Shown: piece after piece, positions 541 to 14,491 of the stretch
Layout of the letters: every line of letters begins with the position of its first letter
Position numbering within the stretch: position 1 is the stretch's first letter
Source of the DNA: a virus
IMG/VR virus record: IMGVR_UViG_3300021957_000309
Span: 1-23,611 of that record
Reading direction: 5' to 3' (one strand)
Length of the DNA: 23,611 nt
Made by a program: the position numbers and the translations under genes
The notes under the pieces: generated by a model
Seen by the model: only the letters and a program-made list of their open reading frames with translations
What the model was told of the DNA's origin: nothing
The model's database searches: none

Positions 541-771
541 ATGAAACAAAAACTTAGTAAAAAAGCAGCCCTCGCAAAAAAGAAGAGAGATCTAGCGTAT
601 GCAATGACACCGAGAAGAAGAAAGATGAAAGCGGAGAACCAAAGACTGCGTAGAGCAGCAATTAAGGCTGGTAAGAATATTAAGGGGAAAGATTATGATC
701 ACAATACAAAAAAATTTATTTCGGTTAAACGAAACAGAAGCAAAACAAAAACGACTAACAACACAAAATAA
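541..771 (+). CDS. Small highly basic protein, unknown function
   Basis: The product has 76 residues and is rich in Lys and Arg along its whole length, with basic patches near KKAALAKKKR and TPRRRKMK. No cysteine, membrane segment or known domain is visible. The charge suggests nucleic-acid binding, as in small phage DNA-binding or head-internal proteins, but this is inference from composition. The ATG follows the A/T-rich TAATAACA with no Shine-Dalgarno. The stop overlaps the next start (TAATG at 769-773), implying translational coupling to the fibre gene. It is the first gene of the long + strand train. Confidence 0.7.
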   Translation: MKQKLSKKAALAKKKRDLAYAMTPRRRKMKAENQRLRRAAIKAGKNIKGKDYDHNTKKFISVKRNRSKTKTTNNTK

Positions 772-1748
772 TGGCTAGAATACAGAACTATAACGCGGGT
801 ATTGTATCGGGAGATGACAAGATACTAGGGCAAGATGGTAGCAGTACTTCCACGTTTACTATAAATGATCTAGCTACATATATAAATGACAACTACCAGG
901 TGGTGGGAGGAATAACGCTAGGCTCATTTAGTTTAGTAACAAACGCCGCATCTGGTGATGGCTCACTTACTTATAACGCATCGAACGGAGTATTTACTTT
1001 TACACCAGCTGATGCTTTTTCAGGTTCTTATAATGACTTAACAAATAAACCATTCATATTTGGAGGTGATTATCAGCAACTAAGTAATAAGCCAACTATA
1101 CCGACCTATTTAACAGATTTACAAATCACACAGGGGTCGGCGGGACAATATCTACAATCGAACGGTGATGGTACTTTTACATTTTCAGCGGTTACAGGAG
1201 ATGGTGTAGGAATTCAACATTCTGATTTATCCATAACGACGTCGGCCGCTAACGCGGGAGGTTCGCTATCTTACGATGCGAATACAGGTGTATTTACTTT
1301 TGTACCTGCGGATATACCAACTGTTCCTACGGATATTAATCAATTAGCTGATTCAACAAACGTGATACCAGCTGACGTATCTGATTTAACCGATACAACA
1401 AACCTAATACCTGCTGCGTTCATCAACACAATGACTGCAACAGCAGCGGGCGGGGCTTATTATATAGACGGCAACATTAGAGCTGTAATAGTATTAGTTC
1501 CTGGGTTTACATATAAAATAGATACAAGTGATTCGAGTATGAGCAGCCACCCTTTTAAATTTTCAACCACATCAAATGGAACACACGGGGGAGGAACTGA
1601 ATATACCACAGGCATTACTACAACAGGTGTAGCAGGACAAGCAGGCTCGTATGTAACAGTACAATTGCAACAAGGACATCCAGTATTACACTACTACTGC
1701 AGCAATCATTCTGGAATGGGAGCAGGCGTAGCAGATTTAACAACTTAA
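771..1748 (+). CDS. Fibre-like structural protein with C-terminal cupredoxin-like domain
   Basis: The protein has 325 residues. Residues 1-45 (MARI...SGDDK..G.D...IND) resemble the N terminus of the 915-aa fibre at 6534, suggesting a shared virion-attachment domain. Two copies of a beta-rich repeat follow (GSL.Y....GVFTF.PAD, roughly residues 64-81 and 163-180), separated by YNDLTNKP/YQQLSNKP linkers; such repeats are common in marine phage fibres. From about 220 the protein changes to a compact beta-rich domain with His260 in SHPFKF and the motif Y-C310-S-N-H313-S-G-M316. The His...CxxHxxM order is that of type I copper ligands in amicyanin-like cupredoxins. Real copper binding is inferred only. 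The same CSNHSGM-like motif could be a structural fold conserved without metal. Confidence 0.7.
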   Translation: MARIQNYNAGIVSGDDKILGQDGSSTSTFTINDLATYINDNYQVVGGITLGSFSLVTNAASGDGSLTYNASNGVFTFTPADAFSGSYNDLTNKPFIFGGDYQQLSNKPTIPTYLTDLQITQGSAGQYLQSNGDGTFTFSAVTGDGVGIQHSDLSITTSAANAGGSLSYDANTGVFTFVPADIPTVPTDINQLADSTNVIPADVSDLTDTTNLIPAAFINTMTATAAGGAYYIDGNIRAVIVLVPGFTYKIDTSDSSMSSHPFKFSTTSNGTHGGGTEYTTGITTTGVAGQAGSYVTVQLQQGHPVLHYYCSNHSGMGAGVADLTT

Positions 1749-2285: not shown

Positions 2286-3848
2286 ATGGAATATAATAAC
2301 CCAAGTGAGATAGTAAAAGATCTAGCATTCGGTTCGGATGCGAGAGATAAAATAATAAAAGGGATAGATAAACTGTCAAGTGCAGTCAAATCAACTCTCG
2401 GTGCATCGGGTAAATGTGTCATCTACGAAGATGGGATTGGAAAACCGGTTGTAACCAAAGATGGCGTAACAGTTGCAAACTCTGTGGTACTTTTAGATCC
2501 TGTAGAAAATATAGGCGCAACGCTTATAAAAGAAGCAGCCCAGAAAACAGTAAAAGAAGCCGGCGACGGAACGACAACTTCGACCGTGCTAGCTTCGGCC
2601 ATCTTAAAAGAATGTATAGCCCATGATAATGTAGATTTTAGATATATTAAAGAAGGCATTGGAAAGGCTAAAGAAAAAGTATTAAAATACTTAGATGAAA
2701 TTAAAATCGAAGTTACTGACAAAATGTTAGATAGCGTTGCATCTATATCTGCTAATAATGACAAGGAATTAGGAGGTATAATAGCAAACGCATATAAGGA
2801 GGTTGGTAATGACGGTGTTGTTTTGATGGAAGAGTCTGACGACGAGACCACGTACGTTGAAATCGTAGATGGAGTACAATTCGATTCAGCTTTAAAATCG
2901 CAACACCTAGTTACTGATAAAGACAAGAATAGATCAGTGCTCGAAAATCCTTATGTATTAATTGTAGAATCTGAAATACAAAATATAAGAAAAATACAAT
3001 CAATACTTGAACACGTTATAAAAGAAAAGAGAAGTTTGCTTATAGTAGCACAATTAGCTACTCAGCCATTATCTGCTCTTATAATGAATGCTGTAAAGGG
3101 TAACATAAAGGTTAATATAGTAGATTTGCCTGGTTTTGGAGCTACCAAAAGAGATACGATAGAAGATTTAGCGACAATAACCGGCGCAAAAATTATTTCG
3201 GAGGACTTAGGCGACGATTTAGATTTAATTAACCCTGATTACTTAGGTGAAGCAATAAAGTCCGTTACGGATGATAATAACACCGTTATAACTATAGACG
3301 GAATGCCTGAGGAAACTAAAGAAAGGATAAAAGCTGTAAAAAAGAAAATAAAAGAAGAAAAGAACGGCTTTATAAAAAAGAAACTTGAACAGAGATTAGC
3401 AATGCTTTCAGGAGCTGTTGGTATTATAAATGTAGGAGCAAATAGTAAAGTAGAGTTAAAAGAAAAGAAAGATAGAGTAGAAGATGCAATATATGCGACA
3501 AAAGCTGCATTAAGAGAAGGTATAGTGCCAGGTGCTGGTATTGCACTGCATAATGCTGCTGATAGTTATAAGACAGAAGTTGTAACAGAGCAAATATTAT
3601 TAGAAGCTATAAAATCCCCATATAAAACTATATTAGAAAATGCCCACATAAATTATGGGCCTAATATGAAAGAGGGGTGGGGTGTTAATGTTATAACAGG
3701 CCAAAATGTGGATTTAGTAAAAGACGGTATTATTGATCCTGTGCTTGTAACTAAAACAGCGTTAATAAATGCGATAAGTGTAGCCACTACAATATTATCC
3801 GCAGATTGTGTAATTTCAAATATAAGAATTAATGAGAGCGGTAAATAA
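2286..3848 (+). CDS. groEL: Phage-encoded GroEL (60 kDa chaperonin)
   Basis: This is an ATP-driven group I chaperonin subunit that would form the ring for protein folding in the host cytoplasm. It has 520 residues against about 545 in bacteria. The equatorial signatures are intact: KDGVTV (58-63), GDGTTT (93-98), SANND (155-159), VEDA with Asp400 matching the catalytic Asp398 of Escherichia coli, and EGIVPGAG. The apical domain keeps LPGFGATKRDTIEDLATITG. The segment after GVQFD (196-200) reads SALKSQHL where bacterial GroEL has the conserved YLSPYF region, so part of the substrate/GroES-binding surface is changed. The C terminus lacks the Gly-Gly-Met tail. It overlaps groES by 17 bp, forming an operon as in bacteria but with EL before ES, opposite to the usual order. 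Confidence 0.96.
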   Translation: MEYNNPSEIVKDLAFGSDARDKIIKGIDKLSSAVKSTLGASGKCVIYEDGIGKPVVTKDGVTVANSVVLLDPVENIGATLIKEAAQKTVKEAGDGTTTSTVLASAILKECIAHDNVDFRYIKEGIGKAKEKVLKYLDEIKIEVTDKMLDSVASISANNDKELGGIIANAYKEVGNDGVVLMEESDDETTYVEIVDGVQFDSALKSQHLVTDKDKNRSVLENPYVLIVESEIQNIRKIQSILEHVIKEKRSLLIVAQLATQPLSALIMNAVKGNIKVNIVDLPGFGATKRDTIEDLATITGAKIISEDLGDDLDLINPDYLGEAIKSVTDDNNTVITIDGMPEETKERIKAVKKKIKEEKNGFIKKKLEQRLAMLSGAVGIINVGANSKVELKEKKDRVEDAIYATKAALREGIVPGAGIALHNAADSYKTEVVTEQILLEAIKSPYKTILENAHINYGPNMKEGWGVNVITGQNVDLVKDGIIDPVLVTKTALINAISVATTILSADCVISNIRINESGK

Positions 3849-4083
3849 TTACATAATCATAAAAGGTATAAAAGAAGATCAGAAAACAGATTCTGGTTTT
3901 ATAATACAAGATAACACTGAATTTAGATATTTAAAAGGTCAAGTTATAAGCGTTGGTGAAAAAACAGAGGCTATAACACTTGATGATATTGTATATTATG
4001 ATAGGCACGCGGGACACGAGGTAATATTTGATGATAATACATACATTGTTATTAAGCAACAAGACGTGGTTATAGTAGAATGA
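3832..4083 (+). CDS. groES: Phage-encoded GroES-like co-chaperonin
   Basis: This is the lid subunit partner of GroEL, 83 residues against about 95 in bacteria. The N-terminal strand NNYIIIKGI, a mobile-loop region about 16-35 with SGFII at the place of the GroEL-binding GGIVL, then GQVISVG and DDIVYYDR, give the GroES barrel order. The C-terminal strand is DVVIVE. It is shortened at the roof loop. It overlaps groEL by 17 bp in another frame, and its stop overlaps the next start (ATGA at 4080-4083), so the three genes are probably translated together. Assignment rests on the mobile loop plus position beside groEL. Confidence 0.88.
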   Translation: MRAVNNYIIIKGIKEDQKTDSGFIIQDNTEFRYLKGQVISVGEKTEAITLDDIVYYDRHAGHEVIFDDNTYIVIKQQDVVIVE

Positions 4084-4572: not shown

Positions 4573-4659
4573 ATGCCGGGAAAAACAAAAAAAGGAGGAG
4601 GCTTAAAAGTTAAGACTTCTTACAAAAAAAAGAATAAAAAGAAGAAGCATGGCAAATAA
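4573..4659 (+). CDS. 28-aa lysine/glycine-rich micro-protein
   Basis: The frame runs 28 codons, starting MPGKTKKGGGLKVKTSY and ending in KKKNKKKKHGK. About half of the residues are lysine. It overlaps the next gene by 11 bp in another frame. Similar short MPxKxxKGGG peptides seem to recur in marine phages, which supports a real gene. Binding to DNA, RNA or an acidic partner is possible from charge alone. Confidence 0.5.
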   Translation: MPGKTKKGGGLKVKTSYKKKNKKKKHGK

Positions 4660-4933
4660 AAAAGCCCCTTCTAAGAAAAAATCTCTTGGTTATTACAATA
4701 AAGCTAATAAAAAAGGTACCGGTGCCAAAGCAGGTGGGGGTATGTCTAAAAAGGGCGTTAAAAAATATAGACGTGATAACCCAGGAAGTAAGTTAAAAAC
4801 AGCGGTGACTACGCCACCGTCTAAATTAAAAAAAGGAAGCAAAGCTGCTAAAAGAAGAAAATCATTTTGTGCAAGATCAAAAGGGTGGACGTCTGAAAGA
4901 GGTAGGGCTGCTAGGCGTAGATGGAATTGTTAG
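4649..4933 (+). CDS. Basic protein with conserved GSKLKTAV / KRRKSFCAR / RRWNC motif
   Basis: The product has 94 residues. A Lys/Gly-rich N terminus is followed by DNPGSKLKTAVTTPPSKLKK, GSKAAKRRKSFCARSKGW and a terminal RRRWNC. Two cysteines (in SFCAR and WNC) could pair or bind metal. I recognise this C-terminal arrangement as a domain of unknown function found in marine phages and large DNA viruses. A nucleic-acid-binding or virion-internal role is inferred from charge. It stands in the centre of the lysine-rich micro-gene cluster. Confidence 0.75.
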   Translation: MANKKAPSKKKSLGYYNKANKKGTGAKAGGGMSKKGVKKYRRDNPGSKLKTAVTTPPSKLKKGSKAAKRRKSFCARSKGWTSERGRAARRRWNC

Positions 4934-5325: not shown

Positions 5326-5640
5326 ATGAAAAAATTTATTACGACTCTACTTTTATTGTTTGCTTTAAGCACACAGGCACAAGACGTTACTGTTGTGCAT
5401 TTTAATTATAAATGGAACGCAAAAAATGATTATACTAAATTAGAATCTATTAAAAGAGCTTCTGTTTCAAAAGCACTTGTTGAAGAACAAGCTGCTGATT
5501 TACAGGCTAGTATTAAATCTGTACCAGTTATAATTATATTTAGAAGCGGAAAGCCGGTCGCTAGAATAGAAGCGGGCTTAAGCATGAAAATAGAGGCAAG
5601 ACTTGACGAGATTCAAGAGCTTGTGGATAGAAACAATTAA
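5326..5640 (+). CDS. Exported thioredoxin-fold protein lacking the CxxC
   Basis: The product has 104 residues. Residues 1-19 form a clear signal peptide (MKKFITTLLLLFALSTQAQ) with likely cleavage around 18-20. The rest has the order of a short thioredoxin fold: strand VTVVHFNY, helix, strand, then the cis-proline region SVP67VIIIFRSGKPV and the terminal GLS... helix. At the active-site position, where thioredoxins have WCxxC, it reads W30-N-A-K-N34; both cysteines are absent and the mature protein has none. It cannot be a dithiol oxidoreductase; binding or structural use is more likely. The family call is by motif pattern. It starts 2 bp after the upstream stop, with A-rich pre-start and no Shine-Dalgarno. 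Confidence 0.65.
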   Translation: MKKFITTLLLLFALSTQAQDVTVVHFNYKWNAKNDYTKLESIKRASVSKALVEEQAADLQASIKSVPVIIIFRSGKPVARIEAGLSMKIEARLDEIQELVDRNN

Positions 5641-6533: not shown

Positions 6534-9281
6534 ATGGCAAGGATAAAAACTTACGTTAATGACACTGGAATAACGTCCGGAGATAAGTTTATAGGAACTG
6601 ATCAAGCCACAGGGGCAACTAAAAATTTTACATTTGGTGATCTAGTTAGCGCTATAAATGATCAAGCATTATTTCAAGCTTTTGACGGAGCTATATATAA
6701 TTTTAAAGTTTTATCCACAGACCCATCACCTAGCGGTATAATAAACCTAACAGGTACGAACGCTATTGACACCAACTTTAATGCTGTTACGCAAATAATA
6801 GTTAGTAAGATAAATACTCAAGGGGATAATATTGCTAATTATATAGATGGTTTATTAAACTATCATATAAAAATATCAAATTCAACTACGTTAGATCAGT
6901 ACGCTATATATAGAGTAGATGCTGTTGAAGATTATATTAACGATGCTGACTACAAAAAGTTAACTGTAAATTTTAAAGAAGGTAATGGTCAACTAACAAC
7001 TGGATCAAATTACTTTCTTTCTTTATTTCAAGCATCGTATGATACCGATTTAACTAGTAGATCTGTTACGGAGTTTGGAGATATGACTTCCGCTGGGTCT
7101 GGTAATATAATTACTACAGCTGAAAGAATAACATTAAACTCAGTACCTAGTAAAATAAATTATGCTGATATAGTTGACAATGTAATCGACAATAGAACAA
7201 ACGTACCATTATCAGCGAATCAAGGTAAAGTATTAAAAGGGTTAATAGACAATATAAACACACTACTAACATCGGATAATGTAAGCTTAGATACATTACA
7301 AGAGGTTGTAGATTTTATTGAAGCCAATAAAGATACCTTAGATAATTTAACTATAAGTAATATAGCGGGGCTGCAAAATGCTTTAGATAATAAGGTAAGC
7401 ATAGTGGCTGGAAAAGATTTATCAGATAATAACTTTACAGACGCCTTGCTAAGTAAATTAAACGCTATAGCTGCGGGCGCGGAAGTAAATGTTCAATCAG
7501 ATTGGAATCAGTCTTTAAATACCTCTGATGATTTTATAAAAAATAAACCTACGGATGTAACTGATTTAAGCTTACATAATGCAACTGAATTGTCAGATGT
7601 TTTTGATTCTGGTTCAGGTTATATAATAACTAATAATGAAAGAACTAAGCTAGCAAATATTACAGTAGGATCTAACAGTATTATAACTAATGCTGAAAGA
7701 ACTAAGCTAGCGGGTATAGCATCCGGTGCTGAAGTTAATGCACAAGCAAATTGGAATGAAACGAATAGTGCGGATGATGCGTTTATTTTAAACAAACCAG
7801 CTTTTGTTGATCCTAGTATTACTTTTACAATAACAGGAACCGCTAATGAGATAGAAGTTTCCCCTAGCACAGCACAAGATTTAACAACAGATAGAACTGT
7901 ACAAATAGGTTTACCTAATACTGTTAATGTAACTAACAACTTAATAACTGGTGATGATGTTACAGCTGGTCAAGATTTAAAAGCCACTAGGTATTTACAG
8001 TTTACAACTCCACAAGCAAATCCACCAACAGCACAGAACGCTATATATGTTACAACAGATAGCGCTCATGATGTTATGCACTTTAGGTATCACGGTCATG
8101 ATTTATCCATTGATACTTTAACTGAAAATGTTCCTACAGGTATCACATCAGGAGGGGAGTTATCAAAAGCTAGTAATACTCAATTTACAATTAATGCAGG
8201 TACAGGTTTAATAAATGATTTAAATAAAGAATCAACCGCAACAAAACCTTACCCTGAAATATTAGAAATAAGCTGGTCAACTCAAACTATAACTGTATCT
8301 AATTTAGCACCGCTAGAGGCAGAGCAAAAAAATTCATGGATATATATAGACGAACTCGGACAGGTGCAACAACAAAGCACACCGTTTACAGATGGTCAAT
8401 ATAGTAATAAGATCCCAATTGGTGTTGCATTACACAGTAGTGGTGTAATATTATTTACTAAGACCTTTCCTCAAACAGCTTATAATACAACAGACGGCTT
8501 ACAGCAATTTGCTAGAATATTTGGACCTCTTAAAAAAGATGGATTAACAGTTACAGCTAATGGTGCTAATTTATCTTTAGACAGAGCGCAAGGTACATCA
8601 TTTGCATTTGGAAGAAATTACGTGAATAATCCTAATAGTCCTTCTCTTGTAATTGATGCTACAAAATCTCAAGCTGAAATACACAGATATTATAAAGACG
8701 GAACAGGAGGATACGTAAGAGACAATAATAGTGGCAATGGGTATACCGAAATAGATCCTACTAAATGGGATCCAGGAACAGGTACGCTTTCTACAATACC
8801 AGGTGGGCAATATTCAATTCAAAGATTTTACTTTTTCCCAGGCACGCCAGATATATTAGTTGTTTATTACGGTACAGAATATTTCAGTAATTTAGAAGAA
8901 GCTGAAAGAAACTTTTTATCATCACAGGCTGATGAAGATGACAACACTGCTCAACAAGCAGTTTACTTAGGGGCTGTAATTGTTTCAGGAAGTGCAAACA
9001 ATTTACAAAATGTTAATCAAGCTAAATTTTTCCAAGGAGGAATATTTAGAAACTTATCAGGTGCTCCTGTTGGATCGGTTGCGGGTAACGCAGTATTAAA
9101 TGATTTAATAGATGTACAAGTACAAACACCATCTAACGAGGATATATTACAATATAATTCCGCTACTACACAATTTGAAAATGTTGCATTAGCATCAGTT
9201 ATTGGTAGTGGTGATGCCCAAAAAGAAGCATTATATAATGTTATTGGTATTGGGGAAATTTATTACATGACACAATTATAA
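6534..9281 (+). CDS. Large tail-fibre / receptor-binding protein
   Basis: The protein has 915 residues. Residues 1-45 resemble the N terminus of the 771-1748 fibre (MARI.. Y ..SG.DK..G.D). The middle part has repeated fibre modules IIT..ER.. and GAEVN.Q..WN....DD.FI.NKP, two copies at about 316-340 and 399-423, as seen in many marine phage fibres. Units at 364-382 and 383-401 are a recent 19-residue tandem duplication. The C-terminal half from about 500 is a beta-rich globular region (HFRYHGHDLSID, SWIYIDELGQV, SIQRFYFFPGTPDILVVYYG) likely to include receptor-binding parts. No enzyme motif is recognised. It is the largest protein here and the first gene of the fibre locus. Confidence 0.85.
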   Translation: MARIKTYVNDTGITSGDKFIGTDQATGATKNFTFGDLVSAINDQALFQAFDGAIYNFKVLSTDPSPSGIINLTGTNAIDTNFNAVTQIIVSKINTQGDNIANYIDGLLNYHIKISNSTTLDQYAIYRVDAVEDYINDADYKKLTVNFKEGNGQLTTGSNYFLSLFQASYDTDLTSRSVTEFGDMTSAGSGNIITTAERITLNSVPSKINYADIVDNVIDNRTNVPLSANQGKVLKGLIDNINTLLTSDNVSLDTLQEVVDFIEANKDTLDNLTISNIAGLQNALDNKVSIVAGKDLSDNNFTDALLSKLNAIAAGAEVNVQSDWNQSLNTSDDFIKNKPTDVTDLSLHNATELSDVFDSGSGYIITNNERTKLANITVGSNSIITNAERTKLAGIASGAEVNAQANWNETNSADDAFILNKPAFVDPSITFTITGTANEIEVSPSTAQDLTTDRTVQIGLPNTVNVTNNLITGDDVTAGQDLKATRYLQFTTPQANPPTAQNAIYVTTDSAHDVMHFRYHGHDLSIDTLTENVPTGITSGGELSKASNTQFTINAGTGLINDLNKESTATKPYPEILEISWSTQTITVSNLAPLEAEQKNSWIYIDELGQVQQQSTPFTDGQYSNKIPIGVALHSSGVILFTKTFPQTAYNTTDGLQQFARIFGPLKKDGLTVTANGANLSLDRAQGTSFAFGRNYVNNPNSPSLVIDATKSQAEIHRYYKDGTGGYVRDNNSGNGYTEIDPTKWDPGTGTLSTIPGGQYSIQRFYFFPGTPDILVVYYGTEYFSNLEEAERNFLSSQADEDDNTAQQAVYLGAVIVSGSANNLQNVNQAKFFQGGIFRNLSGAPVGSVAGNAVLNDLIDVQVQTPSNEDILQYNSATTQFENVALASVIGSGDAQKEALYNVIGIGEIYYMTQL
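7623..7736 (+). repeat. 57-bp tandem duplication within the fibre gene
   Basis: Two adjacent 57-bp units (7623-7679 and 7680-7736) each encode a 19-residue IITN.ERTKLA module. Both carry the identical 18-mer TGAAAGAACTAAGCTAGC (7637-7654, 7694-7711). The flanks of the units have diverged. A third, more distant copy of the module (IITTAERITL) lies near 7108. Confidence 0.75.
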
Positions 9282-13516: not shown

Positions 13517-14491
13517 ATGGCACAACAAACAATAAACGTTGGAGTTAGCGCAAACGATGGCGGTGGGGATACTTTAAGAGCCTCAATGCAAAAAATAAAT
13601 GCAAACTTCACAGAAACATATGGTAACGATTTCATTGACTCTGCACAAATTGTACAGGACGCGGTTGGTGAAAGAGAATTAAATGTTGGAGCAGGAACAA
13701 CAGGTCAATCTTTAGCATCTGATGGATCAGGTGGTCTTTACTGGGGTAGTGTTATCACAGGAGACGTACCGATCAATGTTTTAGAAACAAGACTTGGAGA
13801 AATTGGCGCTACTACAATTGGTGTTGACGCTACTGCTGACATAACATTCAATGGGCAGATAACTGCTACAGGACAAAATAGTATTACATTTTTACATGCA
13901 ACATTTGCAGGACTACCTGCTGCTGCAAGTAACGAAGGTTTAATAGCTTACGCACAGGATACGGGAAAATTCTATTGGTCAAATGGGACACAATGGGTTA
14001 CCGCTTTCGCTTTAGCTTCAGACGTAAGAGACAATATAGAGTACATAGGTTATGACACATCTGACTTTATAAGATTTGTTAATAATACAAAAATGGACTT
14101 TTATGTTAATAACGTATACAGAATGCGTTTAGATGATGGGTTAGATTTAGATGGTGATATAAATACCACAGGGGATGTAATTGCATACTCTACAGTAACA
14201 CTTTCAGATATAAACTTAAAGAAAGATGTTGAAAAAATAACAGAACCAATTGAAAAAATAAATAAACTTAACGGAGTTACTTATAAATGGAAAGACAGTA
14301 ATAAAGAGGCAGCTGGGCTTATAGCACAAGATGTTCAAAATGTATTACCTCAATCTGTAATAAAAAGAACAGACTTTCACGGTGAAGAACAACTTGCTTT
14401 AGACTACAATGCTATAGTAGGATTACTTGTAGAGGCTGTTAAAGATTTAGACAATAGGTTAAAAACTTGTAATTGTAATTGCGAAAAATAA
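13517..14491 (+). CDS. Tail fibre with S74 intramolecular chaperone domain
   Basis: The protein has 324 residues. The N terminus (INVGVSANDGGGDTLR...INANF) is an anchor motif common in marine phage fibres. Residues 60-225 are beta-rich fibre. From 230 there is a peptidase S74/endosialidase-type chaperone: S230-D-I-N-L-K235, in which Ser and Lys match the autocleavage dyad, then VTYKWK, AGLIAQDVQNVLP (266-278) and LDYNAIVGLLVEAVKDL (295-311). Known members trimerise the fibre and then cut themselves off just before the Ser, which would leave a mature fibre of about 229 residues. The extreme C terminus, CNCNCEK, carries three cysteines, which is unusual. Confidence 0.9.
   Translation: MAQQTINVGVSANDGGGDTLRASMQKINANFTETYGNDFIDSAQIVQDAVGERELNVGAGTTGQSLASDGSGGLYWGSVITGDVPINVLETRLGEIGATTIGVDATADITFNGQITATGQNSITFLHATFAGLPAAASNEGLIAYAQDTGKFYWSNGTQWVTAFALASDVRDNIEYIGYDTSDFIRFVNNTKMDFYVNNVYRMRLDDGLDLDGDINTTGDVIAYSTVTLSDINLKKDVEKITEPIEKINKLNGVTYKWKDSNKEAAGLIAQDVQNVLPQSVIKRTDFHGEEQLALDYNAIVGLLVEAVKDLDNRLKTCNCNCEK

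Follow-up and report, generated by a model that had tools for sequence, protein, structure and literature searches.

A cupredoxin-like domain with a predicted type-1 copper ligand set in a phage tail-fibre-like protein, and its relatives on annotated virion proteins of marine phages

The DNA analysed in this work is the IMG/VR virus record IMGVR_UViG_3300021957_000309, positions 1-23,611 (this whole stretch of 23,611 nucleotides is hereafter called the window). Near its start, an open reading frame on the plus strand (771-1748, from an ATG start to a TAA stop) encodes a protein of 325 residues, which passes as a phage tail fibre based on its PHROG families, its repeats and an N-terminal module in common with another fibre gene of the window. 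The PHROG tail-fibre profiles phrog_30742 (8e-17) and phrog_693 (6e-12) match it, the region matched being the C-terminal domain studied here, and the annotation of relatives suggests that such a tail-fibre-like protein is present on the virion. The features referred to below are the following.

771-1748, plus strand: fibre protein gene with a C-terminal cupredoxin-like domain (open reading frame, 325 residues; PHROG tail-fibre profiles)
771-900, plus strand: N-terminal module, about residues 1-43 (local alignment to the second fibre protein)
909-1319, plus strand: fibre repeats, two units of ~35 residues around L-x-NKP (repeat score against shuffles)
1425-1745, plus strand: cupredoxin-like domain, residues 219-325, ~107 residues (AlphaFold2, Foldseek)
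1548-1550, plus strand: His260, predicted first copper ligand, in an HPF motif (66/66; invariant in the 39-member alignment)
1698-1700, plus strand: Cys310, predicted copper ligand (66/66; invariant in the 39-member alignment)
1707-1709, plus strand: His313, predicted copper ligand (66/66; invariant in the 39-member alignment)
1716-1718, plus strand: Met316, predicted axial ligand (65/65; Gln in a few distant relatives)
6534-9281, plus strand: second fibre protein, 915 residues, with the same N-terminal module and without the cupredoxin-like domain

The local alignment of the N-terminal module with the product of 6534-9281 scores 77 (shuffles: mean 26 +/- 5.5, maximum 53). For the two ~35-residue repeats, at about residues 47-81 and 147-181, the score is 98 (shuffles: mean 25 +/- 5), in agreement with a preliminary description of this DNA, which had placed fibre repeats ahead of the domain.

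Several other features of the window were also observed. A phage chaperonin pair, GroEL (2286-3848, plus strand; Cpn60, 4e-54) and GroES (3832-4083, plus strand; Cpn10, 3e-13), sits shortly downstream of the fibre gene, its closest phage relatives having ~40% identity (Flavobacterium phage immuto). It is followed by a basic DUF6321 protein (4649-4933, plus strand; 5e-11), of a family without assigned function that other phage profiles also contain, and by a 104-residue protein (5326-5640, plus strand) whose start resembles a signal peptide; this protein includes a thioredoxin-like stretch (VVHFNYKWNAKND ... SVPVIIIFRSGKPVARI), has no CxxC and gave no Pfam match. A fibre protein at 13517-14491 (plus strand) has a C-terminal Peptidase_S74 intramolecular chaperone domain (1e-15) and an N-terminus that is weakly T4 gp9/10-like. 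Positions 60-420 stand out with 50% G+C, against 34% for the record, and gave neither a convincing gene nor an Rfam or tRNA match.

The window terminase shares 62% identity with its counterpart in the uncultured podovirus MW202828 and 45% with the one in Flavobacterium phage elemo, and Cellulophaga phages are also among its matches; going by these matches, the window virus, a marine phage, is therefore a relative of the Bacteroidota podoviruses. Besides the terminase, which the three viruses have in common, elemo and MW202828 also encode GroEL. The cupredoxin-like domain is absent from the regions read in these two relatives, so that the window virus probably acquired it as a module and, for the same reason, synteny with them was discarded as context for the domain.

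The AlphaFold2 model of the window domain, built with 48 relatives, has a pLDDT of 91.1 and a pTM of 0.83, its nine strands forming a beta sandwich. His260 lies just ahead of strand 44-47, Cys310 closes strand 88-92, and His313 and Met316 are in the loop preceding the last strand; a His before a strand, a Cys at a strand end and a His and a Met in the final loop are the arrangement typical of cupredoxins, and these strand positions are consistent with a convergence of all four ligands. When the model was compared with the PDB using Foldseek, ranks 1-22 were all cupredoxins (among them azurins whose loops were engineered to CAAHAAM and CTPHPFM), with rusticyanin as the best match (E 2.5e-3, probability 1.00, TM 0.55), and antibody domains entered from rank 23. 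Since the E-values are modest and the TM values lie at about 0.5-0.6 with a high rmsd, the window domain is, as modelled, a divergent cupredoxin. For a compact cellular relative (locus L143), the fold matches are almost exclusively rusticyanin, plastocyanin and amicyanin (best E 5.5e-4), cupredoxins making up nearly all of its top 36. The model, fold ranks 1-22 and the compact relative alike support the Greek-key beta sandwich of the cupredoxins.

The window domain's own sequence has no match in Pfam or NCBIfam, nor among the PDB sequences, and the sequence links to curated cupredoxin families were found in its relatives. The Pfam Copper-bind model (PF00127) matches 8 of 39 relatives (best 4.6e-5), one of them at 24 bits, above the curated cut-off of 21.2, and the NCBIfam plastocyanin model matches a relative at 3.3e-4. 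Additionally, hhalign comparisons with pseudoazurin-type proteins (from genomes that also carry relatives of the domain) place His, Cys and His in register, with E 1.4e-4 and 5.3e-5 and probabilities of 52-67%. The amicyanin model TIGR02657 reached E = 0.1 at best, in two relatives, so that the domain is not an amicyanin by score. A search with profile A1 reached pseudoazurin at E 1.2 at best, and the 39-member profile (A3), searched against the PDB sequences, returned antibodies and a weak copper-oxidase match, which we consider uninformative.

In the window domain, His, Cys, His and Met occur in the canonical order and loop of a type-1 copper site, with the amicyanin-like spacing C-x2-H-x2-M, and C310 is the sole Cys of the 325-residue protein. 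The preliminary description had proposed a cupredoxin-like, beta-rich domain with His260, C310, H313 and M316 in a CxxHxxM spacing: the codons are located exactly where this proposal places them, the confident model (pLDDT 91) forms a beta sandwich, and cupredoxins lead its PDB fold matches. The conservation of the four positions among homologues, described below, further supports the proposal. A fifth ligand, His272, was also considered, this residue being invariant in close viral relatives, and was rejected because it is Trp or absent in distant relatives that retain the site.

Composition predicts about 0.5 occurrences of C..H..M for the open frames at the first 80 related viral loci, and 84 are found. 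Most of these domains contain the peptide THGGGTEY, a search pattern covering no ligand, and the evidence that is free of pattern bias comes from the 56 domains with this peptide and without any ligand-covering pattern: H, C, H and M are found at all four positions in 56/56. Taking all 66 domains together, H260, C310 and H313 are each present in 66/66 and M316 in 65/65. In an alignment of 39 members from phages and cells, with identities down to 31%, the only invariant residues are Y248, H260, G275, C310, H313 and M316 (columns 30, 42, 57, 92, 95 and 98 in domain numbering), four of these six columns being the ligands.

The same question was put to the whole genomes of 19 phages, one of them a Methylophilales phage and the other 18 cyanophages or near relatives, using a profile and no ligand pattern. 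Each genome holds 1-5 copies of the domain and, among the readable copies, His1, Cys and His2 are all retained in 34, all lost in 11 and mixed in 3; the site is therefore nearly all-or-none in these genomes. The raw association between His1 and Cys across copies has p = 1e-9. When the ligand columns were left out of the tree, 4 independent pairs pointed the same way, none the other way, and 2 did not differ (p = 0.125), this phylogeny-corrected test of joint loss being underpowered, with too few pairs for significance.

Variants of the site were also recorded. Rare Met to Gln changes (P-RSM6 and SAR86) resemble, by sequence, the stellacyanin type of site, in which Gln is the axial ligand. Two domains (the second copy of locus L032, and L317) have a C-x2-H-x3-M loop instead of C-x2-H-x2-M. 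The gene CSPG_00077 of Cyanophage PSS2 (L256:3992-4330) encodes a stand-alone domain of 112 residues, in which His, Cys and His are lost and the Met and the family signature are retained. Seven cyanophages (L293, L299, L302, L303, L307, L310 and L311) have a ligand-free copy on an apparently orthologous structural protein of ~480-520 residues, together with an intact site on a different protein of the same genome.

Searches with tblastn found the domain in 26 GenBank phage records when the window domain was the query, and in 358 records (837 places) when a relative was used, mostly Synechococcus and Prochlorococcus phages, with Pelagibacter and Methylophilales phages as well. In IMG/VR, one scan gave 231 relatives and another at least 590 viral-contig stretches; this last scan used the Cys-His-Met motif as its pattern, and its ligand counts were therefore excluded as evidence of conservation. 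The preliminary description had considered such a site unusual on a virion surface, a judgement that these 358 records and at least 590 stretches overturn, the domain being widespread in marine phages.

The carriers include P-SSM2, Syn1, S-RIM2 and the pelagiphage HTVC028P. In HTVC028P, Baldr and Melnitz the carrier is annotated as a tail fibre, in S-RIM2, ACG-2014b and ACG-2014d the domain is the C-terminal end of the gp9 baseplate wedge tail fibre connector (with HPF...C..H..M intact), and in S-TIM5 the domain-bearing protein is near the portal gene. The domain is C-terminal in 75 of 143 complete viral frames. Some short viral carriers (L013, L012, L063 and L225) combine it with a four-Cys, zinc-ribbon-like N-terminus (CDRCGF...CPTCF...KHPQ). 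In cellular genomes, the domain ends lipoprotein-like, exported proteins of SAR86 and marine group II archaea; in two of the latter (L097 and L103) the lipoprotein-like protein has a collagen-like GPAG stalk with the domain at its end, an architecture that mirrors the phage fibre. We did not accept all genome matches as purely cellular genes, since some short MAG contigs may be phage, and the protein of a Pelagibacter single-cell locus (L094), which looks phage-fibre-like, may be phage too. Based on this distribution, the domain is most likely a mobile module placed on virion surface parts and, in marine bacteria and archaea, on exported lipoproteins, its location on virions being read from the annotations of relatives; the exported, stalked cellular relatives suggest a general surface-display module.

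The explanation that we favour, with a probability of about 0.58, is that of a mobile cupredoxin module in which the type-1 ("blue") ligand set is complete and which is displayed on the virion as an adhesin or decoration and predicted to bind copper. From the computed fold, ligand set, conservation as a unit, distribution and surface-protein context we infer the copper occupancy, the tip position and the adhesive role. In the mechanism that we propose, the N-terminal module would probably anchor the fibre and the repeats would form its shaft, with the domain, judging from its C-terminal position alone, at or near the tip. The domain would most likely take up one copper ion, either inside the cell or, once it has lysed, in seawater, and the metal would rigidify the outward-facing loop that holds the ligands, located at one end of the sandwich, thereby fixing a surface that, at the fibre tip, could contribute to the binding of a host or environmental ligand. 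The aid to attachment on metal-rich or redox-active outer-membrane targets that the preliminary description had suggested is a conjecture. By extension, many ocean viruses may display a metal site on their surface. A broader version, in which copper-loaded type-1 domains would be present on the fibres and baseplates of a sizeable fraction of marine tailed phages and the metal site would serve in host recognition or entry, as a copper counterpart of the iron "Trojan horse" proposed for phage fibres, is a tentative and rather unlikely proposition at present.

Other explanations account for part of these observations. Copper could be bound and only stabilise a decoration domain outside the cell, with no part in host recognition, which we find unlikely while giving it some weight: metal is known to stabilise fibre tips, as the iron held by HxH motifs in T4 gp37 (PMC11705849), and the domain also occurs at baseplate, portal-adjacent and mid-protein sites that need no host contact. 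Nevertheless, a complete type-1 set with Met is not needed for a purely structural role, and the persistence of ligand-free copies suggests that the metal is not essential for folding. These ligand-free copies, found in several cyanophages and stand-alone in PSS2, would on the other hand fit a cupredoxin-fold adhesin that in practice no longer binds metal, the conserved residues serving in packing, as might the invariant Tyr248 and Gly275, which are not ligands. This we consider improbable, since 4 of the 6 invariant columns are exactly the type-1 ligands and the joint retention or loss of His, Cys and His (34 versus 11, with 3 mixed) is a pattern disfavoured by packing alone.

The ligand set equals that of the electron-transfer cupredoxins, as expected if the site were a functional redox centre, exchanging electrons at the host surface or quenching copper or reactive oxygen. 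However, no partner or redox-enzyme neighbour was recognised in the window, and the domain occurs in phages whose hosts differ widely as well as on stalked surface proteins, so that we give a redox function very little credence. Equally implausible is a generic Ig-like beta sandwich with a coincidental CxxHxxM: antibody domains do appear lower in the fold list, from rank 23, and weakly in the 39-member profile search of the PDB sequences, but cupredoxins hold all the ranks above them, as well as almost the whole top 36 of the compact relative, curated cupredoxin HMMs match relatives, and the ligands are conserved.

The copper-binding surface module that we prefer has several points in common with known systems. 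It shares with the cupredoxins (amicyanin, plastocyanin, pseudoazurin and rusticyanin; PF00127) the beta sandwich, the ligand positions relative to the strands and the order of a His followed by Cys-x2-His-x2-Met (the amicyanin spacing), with one relative passing the Pfam cut-off. It differs in its first-ligand motif (HP[LF]R, against HN[VS] in the pseudoazurins compared, A2), in the stretch of ~50 residues that separates His from Cys and includes a Gly/Thr-rich THGGGTEY loop, and in its occurrence on virion and surface proteins, whereas the known proteins are soluble periplasmic electron carriers; its copper site is predicted. Phage Ig-like decoration domains are mobile beta-sandwich modules on unrelated virion proteins, without copper ligands; mobility and sandwich are alike, and the copper ligand set is found only in the cupredoxin-like domain. 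In print, the closest idea is that of iron bound by HxH motifs of phage fibres, described for T4 gp37, with Alteromonas phage R22Y also having a metal-binding fibre, and metal on the receptor-binding fibre has been proposed to be important for attachment in a metal-poor ocean (PMC11705849). Those fibres use paired HxH histidines in a trimer, whereas the window domain has a predicted His-Cys-His-Met set within one domain. The profiles that match carriers of the domain (phrog_30742; phrog_693, tail fibre; phrog_677, baseplate wedge tail fibre connector; phrog_708) belong to families annotated as tail or virion proteins, with no domain, fold or metal function given for this part. The open-access literature searched gave no description of a phage-fibre cupredoxin. 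The fold and the kind of site are known, whereas their wide occurrence on marine phage virions, as indicated by sequence matches, turned up in none of the papers of that open-access literature.

This work gives a name to a domain that, in PHROGs and GenBank, has so far been just "tail fibre" or "hypothetical". If copper is bound, the domain would be an unrecognised class of metalloprotein on the surface of marine viruses, even in the well-studied P-SSM2, Syn1, S-RIM2 and HTVC028P, and would offer a testable way into the working of fibre tips, together with a single Cys to Ser mutant by which metal and fold could be separated. Such virions would additionally be a possible viral ligand pool for seawater copper.
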